From: Spartobacteria bacterium
Lineage (GTDB): Bacteria > Verrucomicrobiota > Verrucomicrobiia > Chthoniobacterales > UBA10450
NCBI GenBank assembly: GCA_003169975.1
Contig: PNAA01000041.1
Coordinates: 124,657-188,656, forward strand
Direction: 5' to 3'
Length of the DNA: 64,000 nt
This document shows, piece after piece, positions 6,831 to 40,719 of the stretch. The translations under genes and the position numbers were made by a program. The notes under the pieces were generated by a model. It searched no databases and had not been told where the DNA came from. It saw only the letters and a program-made list of their open reading frames with translations. How positions within the stretch are numbered: position 1 is the first letter of the stretch; every line of letters starts with the position of its first letter.

Positions 6831-8702
6831 ATGAACCATCGAACTCTTTCCCGATTTGCGAAGCTCAATCTTGCCCTAATTGCTTCTCTTTTTTTCCTTG
6901 CGCCGGTTCCCCGAGCGGTCCGCGCGCAACCCGCATCGCAACAATCCGAGCCGACGGAGGTCTACGCCACCGCTTCCGACGGAACCATACTCCACTGGAT
7001 CGTTTACACGCCGACGGGCAGTGGCCCCTGGCCTGCAGTCCTCGTCATCCACGGCGGCGGCTTCAAAGGCGGAACCCCGACCAGCTCGCCGGAATCGGTC
7101 AGCTGCGGGCGCGATCTGGCCGCAGCTGGATTCATCGCTTTCTCGATCGAATATCGGCTGGCACCGGAAGGATTTCTGCCGGGCCAGGTATCCGACGGAC
7201 GTTTCCCCGACCAATCGGATGATGTCAAACTCGCCGTGCTGGCGGCGCGCAACGACGCCCGCTGCAATGGGCAGGTCGGTTCTGTCGGCGGTTCAGCCGG
7301 CGGCTATCAGACAGCCTTTGTCGCGGGCACGGGGACGATCGGCCAGGACCGGATCGATGTCGGCGTCAGCCTCTCTGGGGCCTACGATTTGTCAGACTTC
7401 AGCCCGGATCCAAACATTCAAGGCTTTGCCGCCGACGTAACGAACTACGTGGGGTGCACGACGTTTGATACCGGTTTGCTGCAAATGGCTTCTCCCGCCT
7501 ACCTCGTCGACGGCAGCACCGCACCCCTCTTCATAGTCCACACCGAGCAAGACCCAATGCCCTTCAGCCAGGTCGCGGATATGACGACGAAGCTCGATGC
7601 ACTGGGCGTAACAAATTACCAGGCTCTTACTCTACCCGGGTCCCAGCATTCGTTCACTTACTGGCCTTCGGTCAAAGATCAGGCGATTAGCTTTCTTGAG
7701 TCCTGGTTCGCGGGCGGCCCTCCGCCGCCATCACCTACTCCCACCCCGACAGCAACGCCGAATCCTTCTCCGACCGCGACGCCGAATCCCACCCCGACAG
7801 CAACACCGAATCCCACCCCGACAGCAACACCGAATCCAACCCCGACAGCAACACCGAATCCTTCTCCGACCGCGACGCCGGATCCAGGTGGCTCGCCCAC
7901 GCCGCCTCCGCTGGTCGCCCCTACTCCGACCCAAATGCTGCTTAATGTCTCGACCCGGGCGCGCGTGGAGAGTGGGAGCAGCGTCATGATCGGAGGCTTC
8001 ATCATCACCGGCGACGCGGCCAAGAAAGTGGCCATGCGGGCAATCGGGCCATCGCTGGCCGATGCGGGCGTGAGCGACGTGCTGGCCGACCCCGTTCTCG
8101 AATTGTATGACTCCACCGGAAGCCTGATCGCACAAAATGACAACTGCTCTTCGCTGCCTCCAGACAGCATCCCGGCGGATTTGAAGCCGACCGACGGGCA
8201 CGAATCCTTCATCTCCGTGACTCTGCCGCCCGGGAGTTACACCGCCGTGCTGCGGGGAGCAAACGGCGCAGCCGGCATCGGTTTGTTCGAGCTTTACGAT
8301 CTGGATCCTGCCAGCTCGCGTATTTCCAATATCTCCACCCGGGGCGACGTCGGAACCGGCAGCGACGTTATGATCGGAGGCTTTATCATCGGTGGCGCCG
8401 AACCGACGAAAGTGATTGTGCGAGCGATCGGCCCTTCGCTCGTCGCTGAGAATGTTTCGAATGCGCTGCCCGATCCGCTCCTCGAACTCTACGACAGCAA
8501 CGGCTCGCTCATCTTCACGAACGACAACTGGCGCACCACTCAGGAACAGCAAATCATCGATTCAGGCGTCCCGCCGAGCGATGACCGTGAAGCTGCGATC
8601 GTCGCCACGCTGGTTCCGGGAGGTTACACGGCGATGATTCGCGACGCGGGACAGGCCACTGGCATAGCCCTAGTCGAAGTCTACAACCTGGAGCCAAACT
8701 GA
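6831..8702 (+). CDS. Exported alpha/beta hydrolase with Pro-Thr linker and two C-terminal repeat modules
   Basis: The 623-residue protein begins with a signal peptide ending near AVRAQ (residue 33). An alpha/beta-hydrolase domain follows to about residue 300, with the oxyanion motif [10 protein letters not shown], the nucleophile elbow GGSAGGYQ and a late His in GSQHSFTYW; it resembles the dienelactone-hydrolase and BD-FAE feruloyl esterase groups. Residues 304-351 are six 8-residue units of PTPTATPN type encoded by a minisatellite. Two related modules of about 125 residues close the protein, each with MIGGFII, RAIGPSL, LELYDS and NDNW landmarks. The modules recur in the pseudogene at 38762-40719. 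I infer a secreted esterase acting on plant polymers or other esters. Confidence 0.85.
7740..7883 (+). repeat. 24-bp minisatellite coding for a Pro-Thr linker
   Basis: Six tandem 24-base units encode PTPTATPN or its variants PSPTATPN and PSPTATPD. They separate the hydrolase domain from the C-terminal modules. Tandem units of this kind change copy number by slippage without shifting the frame. Confidence 0.85.
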
Positions 8703-38761: not shown

Positions 38762-40719
38762 ATGCCAGGGATGCGGTCGCCAACGGGCCGGCGGCGGCCG
38801 TCCCGCTGCGCGCTCGCGTGTGTCTGTGCGATCGCCCTCGCTCGGTCGAGCGGCACGCGGGCGGGCGATTACTTTGTGAATCCGAGCGGCACCAACGGTG
38901 CTTTCACGACGGTGCAAAGCGCGGTGGATGCGGTGGTCGGACAGACGAGAACCAATCGCGCGAACATTTTCCTCGCGCCGGCGGAGTACGTGGAACATAT
39001 GACGGTCGATAAACCGTTCGTAACGTTCATCGGCCAAGGCGCGGGGCTCGAGGACGTGAACATTTCGTTCAACAGTACGCACGCTAGCCGTGGTCCTTGG
39101 GGCGCCGCTACCTTGATCGGCAACAGCGCGACCGCGTTCATGGCGCGCAATCTAACTTTCGAAAACTTCGCCCCCGACCGCAACATTACGGCGGCTCTCG
39201 CGCTCCAATCCAACGCCGATCGCGCGATTTTCGATAACGTACAGTTTCTCGGCTATCAGGACACTCTGCTCGTCGATGGCCGGGCGCGGCAGTATTTTCG
39301 CGGCAGCTTCATCACCGGCGACGCGGATTTCATTTTCGGGGACGCGACGGCAGTATTCGACCAGTGCACGATCGAGAGCACCGACTATGGCAGATTACGG
39401 CCGCCGACACGGCACGAATAACCGCGAAAGGACTGATCTTCCTGGATTGCACCCTGGTGGCAGGCGCGGATCGCAGTCCATTGGACGACGGGACTTCCGC
39501 GCCGAACAATTCGGTGTTTCTAGGTCGGCCATGGCTTTGGTCCCGAACCGGATCAAATGCCGAGCGTCATCTACATTCGCACGCGGATGGGGACGCACAT
39601 CGCGCATGCCGGCTGGGATCCGTGGAATTCCATCCTCGATCCCTCCCTCGACCGCGATCCGCGCACACGAGTTTCCGAGTGGGACAGCATGAATCTCGCC
39701 GATGCGCTCCTCCAGGATTCAAATAACGACGGCACACCCGATGGCCGCGTGCCGTGGGCAGACCCGATGATCGTGGCCCAGGCGGCCAATTACACCCTGC
39801 AAAATATCTTCGGACCGGTGGAATTCTGGAACTCGGCGACGCAGCCCGACACGCCCGGTATTCCCTACGTCAGTCAGGGTGATTCGTGGGATCCGCAGGC
39901 GCAATTGCTCCCGCTGCCGGCCAGACCTGGCGCGCATCCGCAGCTCTTCGACGCCTCGACGCGGCTGCATGTTGGCATGGGTGACAGCGTCGGTATCGGC
40001 GGCTTCATCATCACCGGGGTGGCGCCGAAGAAGGTGATTCTTCGCGCGCTCGGCGCATCTCTGAACGCGTTTGGATTGGACAACGTCCTGGCGATCCGGT
40101 CCTCGAACTCCACGGCGCAGATGGCAGTCTGATGACCGCGAATGACAACTGGCAGGATGACGTAGCCTCAGCCTCGGAGCTGGCAACGATCGGATTGACG
40201 CCGGCGGATGCCTCGGAATCCGCGCTCGTCATTACGCTTCTGCCGGGGCAATATACGGCGATCGTCCGCGGAAATAACGCAGGGACCGGCACCGCGCTTG
40301 GCCGAGGTCTATGACGGCGGCCTGGCGGCGGATTCGCAACTTGCAAACATCAGCACACGCGGATTTGTGGGGGCCAACGATGATGTCATGATCGGCGGCT
40401 TTATTATCGGAGGAAATGGGCAGGGCAACGGACGGGTCGTCATCCGAGCATGGGACCATCGCTGTCCGGCGCCGGGATAACGGGTGCATTACAAGATCCT
40501 TTCCTGGAGCTCAAGGACGCGAACGGTTCCACGTTGATCAGCAACGATGACTGGCAGCAGAGGCAGAGGATGGAAATTAGCCAAACCGGTCTGGTGCCGA
40601 CTGACATTCGTGAGTCAGCTCTGGTGATTTCATTACCCAATGGCAATTACACCGGGATCGTATGCGGCAAGAATGACGCGACAGGCATAGCCGTCGTCGA
40701 AGTCTACAGCGTAATGTAG
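38762..40719 (+). pseudogene. Pectinesterase with C-terminal repeat modules, broken by five small indels
   Basis: The remains of an exported carbohydrate esterase family 8 protein can be pieced together. A signal peptide follows ATG 38762, then the right-handed beta-helix with NLTFENFAPD, GYQDTLLVDGRARQYFRGSF and GDADFIFGDATAVF (active-site Asp residues), then GLIFLDCTLVAG and NNSVFLGRPW, and GTHIAHAGWDPWNS. Two modules with MIGGFII and NDNW landmarks follow, like those in 6831-8702. Frame changes fall near 39390, 39545, 40093, 40300 and 40452; restoring one base at each would give a continuous protein. A decayed gene is the simplest reading, and sequencing error is the alternative. Confidence 0.8.

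Follow-up and report, generated by a model that had tools for sequence, protein, structure and literature searches.

The window analyzed here, a 64,000-nucleotide stretch of a Spartobacteria bacterium contig, carries two genes that share a C-terminal tail (Table 1). One encodes an exported α/β hydrolase, in which an esterase-like domain is joined through a Pro/Thr-rich linker to two copies of a module of ~122 residues; the two copies share 53% identity along 123 residues (E value, 5e-40), and the stop codon lies three residues past module 2. The other is the remains of a pectinesterase gene, whose module pieces match the modules well above chance (E values down to 7e-23, tblastn). The pectinesterase tail is spread over several frames, and therefore no intact protein is present; the gene may have decayed, or the sequence may contain errors. 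Between positions 38762 and 40719, the reading frame of this gene changes about five times, always from one to the other of two frames. The original prediction had placed the same two-module tail at the C-terminal end of both the hydrolase and the pectinesterase remains. This holds for the hydrolase and, in the form of broken copies over several frames, for the pectinesterase; the module length, sequence landmarks, and copy number given at that time were all correct.

Table 1. Features of the two module-bearing genes of the window and of dockerin-like tails in the same genome (positions refer to the window unless a locus is named)
Feature	Position	Strand	Evidence
Exported alpha/beta hydrolase, BD-FAE/Abhydrolase_3 with C-terminal module pair	6831..8702	+	623-aa frame, Pfam
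Probable Sec signal peptide	6831..6929 (end approximate)	+	Hydrophobicity rule
BD-FAE esterase-like domain, residues 59-255	7005..7595	+	Pfam PF20434, 8.5e-17
Pro/Thr-rich linker, enzyme to tail	7716..7937	+	Translation
Module 1, first beta-sandwich	7941..8303	+	Sequence searches, structure model
Module 2, second beta-sandwich	8325..8690	+	Sequence searches, structure models
Pectinesterase passenger, start of broken gene	38762..39418	+	PF01095, 2.4e-30
Broken module 1, two frames (39944-40090, 40093-40296)	39944..40296	+	tblastn pieces, HMM pieces
Broken module 2, two frames (40340-40480, 40447-40716)	40340..40716	+	tblastn pieces, HMM pieces
Dockerin-like tails	L038:7048-8250, L039:4208-6763, L049:7408-8736, L055:12974-13807, L064:8086-9852		

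Collection of all module proteins of the genome (4.47 Mb, 97% complete), a check proposed along with the original prediction, gave 95 matches with module 2 as the query and 94 with profile A2. Manual grouping of these matches resulted in 47 module loci, which rules out that the module is confined to the two genes of the window. Thirty-five loci are intact frames with exactly two C-terminal modules, and no three-module frame was found in this genome; the other 12 have broken frames, are partial, or carry a single module, which points to rapid gene turnover or to errors in the assembly. Module 2 ends 0 to 4 residues before the protein end in 30 of the 35 intact pairs and 13 to 40 residues before it in five, and among 206 pairs from this and other genomes, 158 have exactly 8 residues between the modules. 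A shared upstream DNA motif, as found in PEP-CTERM genes, was searched for by comparing the 35 module genes with 272 other frames, and no clearly enriched word emerged. The genome also harbors a second class of C-terminal tails, dockerin-like repeats with a common “LP” terminus; they exceed the Dockerin_1 cut-off in L038 and L064 and lie below it or are unmatched in L039, L049, and L055.

The passengers of the pair in this genome are highly diverse. By Pfam, the enzymes comprise BD-FAE/Abhydrolase_3 esterases (three), a GDSL lipase, matrixins (three), and an arylsulfotransferase, together with two glucose/sorbosone dehydrogenases and a cyclophilin; NHL, Kelch, and DUF5122 propellers and ice-binding-like, FG-GAP/UnbV, HbpS-like, BNR, GH42, PKD, and fn3 domains are found as well, and several passengers have no Pfam match. 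A crude rule assigned a signal peptide to 26 of the 35 module proteins and to 76 of 201 neighboring frames, these controls, like those used for composition, being drawn from the same regions as the longest open frames there and possibly including some false genes. Compared with 176 such control frames, the 34 passengers of at least 150 residues (one shorter passenger was excluded) have an extracellular composition: they are lower in Lys plus Arg (median, 4.3 versus 10.9%) and Cys (0.43 versus 0.85) and higher in Thr (10.1 versus 5.5%), with Ser and Asn also raised. Shifts in the same directions are reported for PEP-CTERM proteins by Haft et al. (PMC1569441), according to whom LPXTG proteins are essentially alike.

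AlphaFold2, with the 35 pairs of the genome as input, modeled the pair with a pLDDT of 91.2 and a pTM of 0.83; for one module (70 rows), the values were 95.5 and 0.89. Each modeled module is a β-sandwich with approximately eight strands and, in addition, one or two short helices. The structure modeling suggested at the outset thus returned two confident β-sandwiches, probably of the PPC/jelly-roll type. The best Foldseek match of the pair is the tandem collagen-binding domains s3a-s3b of ColG (E value, 3e-8, with a TM-score of only 0.30), and single modules matched the C-terminal part of Tk-SP, single ColG domains, and one PPC domain. PPC and related domains are among the best structural matches, with Z scores below 8 and TM-scores of about 0.5 to 0.6. 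VIA-align gave no match with a Z score of 8 or more; its scores ranged from 6 to 8 with a maximum of 7.8, a level at which the models would show a fold class, or common arrangement, and nothing beyond. By sequence, the best solved relative reached an E value of only 0.69.

Among profile families, the NCBIfam model NF038127 (FDP_fam, DVUA0089 family protein) matches 30 of the 35 pairs at an E value of ≤0.01. For the hydrolase of the window, both the pair (44.2 bits) and the whole protein (38.7 bits) passed its cut-off of 29, and the match of the pair spans only positions 48 to 106 of 150 and hence not most of the model. The PPC profile PF04151 matches six of the 35 pairs at an E value of ≤1 (best, 7.6e-5). 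As a test of PPC membership, this profile gave a negative answer: the window pair is unmatched at an E value of ≤1, and L060 scored 17.4 bits, under the gathering score of 25.9. The module therefore sits near the PPC/DVUA0089 group without qualifying as PPC by profile score. An assigned carbohydrate-binding family, raised originally as a case against a general unit, did not appear, as there is no CBM among the Pfam matches of the 35 pairs at an E value of ≤1. No description of the module pair appeared among the open-licence papers listed in literature searches.

The named relatives that carry the module are metagenome bins of Chthoniobacterales (“Spartobacteria”). Module-positive genomes make up 21 of 387 sampled in the phylum, 21 of 147 in the order, and 72 of 120 in family f10, which we take to be Opitutaceae. 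In the window's own family, the distribution is one of many or none: 17 of 29 genomes have at least 21 to 30 scored matches each, one has a single match, and 11 have none, all copy numbers from the multigenome searches being lower bounds, with up to 11, about 37, and 30 candidates scored per genome in the phylum, f10, and order searches, respectively. Family f10 shows a more gradual distribution, with no more than five matches in about eleven of its 72 positives. Some relatives have far more candidate matches than the window's genome, up to 290 at first look in one of them. A phage or plasmid origin was also considered, and tblastn found no match in plasmid and phage collections.

The arrangement of the module is largely preserved across genomes. 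The 174 closed full-module frames from 135 loci comprise 161 C-terminal pairs, seven pairs followed by more than 15 residues, and six single modules, so that two modules are present in 168 of them; of the 187 frames whose 3′ end is closed, 170 stop 1 to 3 residues past the last module (both totals include a few frames from overlapping loci and from the loci L071 and L091 of the window's genome). After the final strand, the last residues of the pairs follow a single pattern, Y-x-[LVI]-[QKNPRH], and neither a membrane helix nor a basic cluster nor any short invariant motif is present at the C terminus of the pair. Conserved residues of module 2 include Arg6, Asn66, Asp67, Trp69, and Glu118. In a tree of 152 modules (35 pairs from the window's genome, 25 random pairs from the named relatives, and 16 from f10), modules 1 and 2 form largely separate lineages, with 13 label changes compared with a mean of 51 and a minimum of 40 after shuffling, and a single change divides one main group's modules from those of the other. 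This tree points to an old duplication, followed by later expansion inside each lineage.

Some copies depart from the terminal position. The pair precedes an α/β hydrolase-like part in L120 and L183, a CHRD plus DUF1800 part in L191, and a further domain in L141; in L152, it follows Kelch repeats with 118 residues beyond it, and the single module of L115 is succeeded by collagen-like repeats and an FGE domain. N-terminal and internal pairs argue against a strictly terminal recognition tag; their occurrence among the seven pairs with more than 15 following residues better suits a binding domain. In L089 and L090 (assigned by elimination to G169 and G181 of genus g37, with two module matches per genome), a tail of 55 residues comes after the pair, and its hydrophobic stretch and basic end are membrane-anchor-like.

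Two passenger families were compared in a panel of 80 genomes, consisting of 35 many-copy, 9 low-copy or trace, and 36 negative genomes. Among 21 Ice_binding matches, five end in the pair, all of them in many-copy genomes, and nine end in PEP-CTERM-like tails (seven VPEP/IPEP and, by eye, two IPEAS/VPEAS), the remainder being four that leave the locus and three fragments. These PEP-CTERM-like calls are motifs read from the sequence; L224, the only one that was scored, reached 20.3 bits against PF07589, just below the cut-off of 20.7. In one genome (G525, contig C17, ~75346 to 79179), L224 with its PEP-CTERM-like tail and L212 with the pair are divergent neighbors that share the same ice-binding-like domain. 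Among 30 GDSL loci listed from many more, seven end in the pair, three in an autotransporter β-domain (PF03797, 2.6e-28 or better), and 19 in neither, and one leaves the locus. None of the 12 module-bearing frames of the two families ends in another tail. Homologous passengers thus carry the pair, a PEP-CTERM-like tail, or an autotransporter barrel, and the pair therefore occupies the place of known anchoring or surface-display tails.

The original prediction regarded the module as a unit of general use that attaches proteins to the surface, serves their secretion, or binds polymers. Given the diverse exported passengers, the fixed C-terminal place, and the tail exchange, a general unit of exported proteins fits well; no single one of the three functions is thereby established. 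With moderate confidence, we interpret the pair as an exchangeable C-terminal surface-localization tail that acts, most likely, by attaching noncovalently to the surface or matrix of the producing cell itself, and we infer the surface location, the ligand, and the export route. Sec would take passengers out of the cytoplasm, and passage through the outer membrane would follow a general route, for which a type II secretin would be the likeliest candidate. The pair would fold as two PPC-like β-sandwiches in a fixed tandem and hold the passenger noncovalently on the surface or matrix of the producer, with the two domains providing avidity; its job would be that of the PEP-CTERM tail or autotransporter barrel in related proteins. 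Against this interpretation, the presence of the pair may track genome size or lineage, and binding to a substrate polymer could yield part of the same pattern; in addition, the copy number in f10 is closer to a continuum, and the exchange is seen in two passenger families only.

Alternatively, the pair may be read by a dedicated C-terminal sorting machine, as is the case for the type IX CTD or PEP-CTERM, and perhaps be cleaved off. It would then be the address tag of an undescribed Verrucomicrobiota sorting system with its own translocon or transpeptidase, carried by dozens to perhaps more than 100 proteins per genome, acquired or lost as one unit, and replacing PEP-CTERM tails and autotransporter barrels. 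The exact extreme C terminus with its one terminal residue pattern, the fixed 8-residue spacing, the separate lineages of modules 1 and 2, and the many-or-none pattern in the window's family all point in this direction, yet we consider it unlikely, because the end of the pair lacks the features of such signals, some pairs are N-terminal or internal, and no partner was found among four families searched in the 80 genomes. Exosortase does not discriminate: matches occur in 34 of 35 many-copy genomes (the exception being G556), in 30 of 36 negative genomes, and in 8 of the 9 with low copy numbers. A type II-like secretin match is present in all 80 genomes (one over the cut-off), a C25 peptidase exceeds the cut-off in two of 80, and SprA was matched in none of 80, but 14 control genomes were likewise silent. 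The co-occurring sorting machinery that the original prediction proposed to look for thus did not emerge among these four candidates. The number of PEP-CTERM proteins shows no trade-off with the module over 41 genomes, as counted with TIGR02595, a model that detects these tails poorly. We favor attachment to the surface or matrix of the producer over a sorting machine, substrate binding, and a folding cap because the pair forms a folded double sandwich whose class is that of binding domains, carries no membrane anchor, and is sometimes nonterminal.

Two gene families, named from their sequence, recur near module genes: one is Ser/Thr kinase-like and occurs at 24 loci in 13 genomes, and the other is ECF sigma factor-like and occurs at 11 loci in 8 genomes. 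No association is drawn from these raw counts; the loci include L039, L049, L105, L107, L120, L139, L169, and L174.

PPC-type substrate binding, by which extracellular enzymes would be held on external polymers in the manner of the ColG tandem collagen-binding domains or the PPC pair of protease E495, is less probable still. It accords with the ColG tandem as the top Foldseek match, with the Tk-SP, ColG, and PPC matches of single modules, with the PF04151 matches, and with the protein binding that PMC3327674 describes for the PPC domains of E495; however, passengers as different as ice-binding-like proteins, cyclophilin, lipase, sugar dehydrogenase, haem-degrading-like proteins, and propellers share no common substrate, the pair stands in the place of anchoring tails on homologous passengers, and the TM-score to ColG is low. 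A folding or stability cap (an intramolecular chaperone or degradation shield) spread by gene duplication and having no role in location appears very unlikely, since it predicts neither that the pair is exchanged for PEP-CTERM-like tails and autotransporter barrels nor that the two modules are conserved and distinct, even though the lineage-specific paralogous expansion, with two main families that part by a single tree change, and the broken, partial, or single state of 12 of the 47 loci as a sign of rapid gene turnover would agree with it.

If the pair is indeed a surface-localization tail, it would allow direct reading of which proteins soil Verrucomicrobiota, a group known mostly from metagenomes alone, display on their surface, and the positive and negative genomes would constitute a labeled set for finding the machinery behind the pair.

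Several known systems resemble the pair in part. The type IX CTD is a folded β-sandwich at the extreme C terminus of diverse Sec-exported proteins, and the pair is likewise a folded β-sandwich structure at the C-terminal end of diverse exported proteins. To our knowledge, the CTD is single, C-terminal, and never internal, unlike the two tandem modules described here, some pairs of which are N-terminal or internal. The autotransporter β-domain, a barrel in the membrane that mediates the export of the passenger attached to it, occupies the same place as the pair on homologous GDSL lipases in related genomes; the pair, in contrast, forms no barrel. With PPC domains, the pair shares a β-sandwich, possibly of the jelly-roll type, a C-terminal position in secreted proteins, and a tandem arrangement that PPC domains adopt at times, but its passengers are not mainly proteases. 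The DVUA0089 family of NF038127 has a name that carries no function, and its match leaves out the tandem arrangement, the fixed C terminus, and the module's first third. A further parallel is offered by PEP-CTERM/exosortase, for which Haft et al. (PMC1569441) describe a C-terminal tail on many diverse exported proteins, lineage-specific expansion, extracellular composition, tail-less homologues, and many or no copies per genome, the last being true of the pair in the window's own family. The pair itself was rejected as a PEP-CTERM tail: that signal is 24 residues long with a motif, a helix, and a basic cluster, whereas the pair comprises ~250 folded residues without a PEP motif, transmembrane helix, or basic cluster, and exosortase does not track it. 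Although no partner gene emerged among the families searched, the pair displays the hallmarks from which Haft et al. (PMC1569441) proposed PEP-CTERM as a sorting signal.
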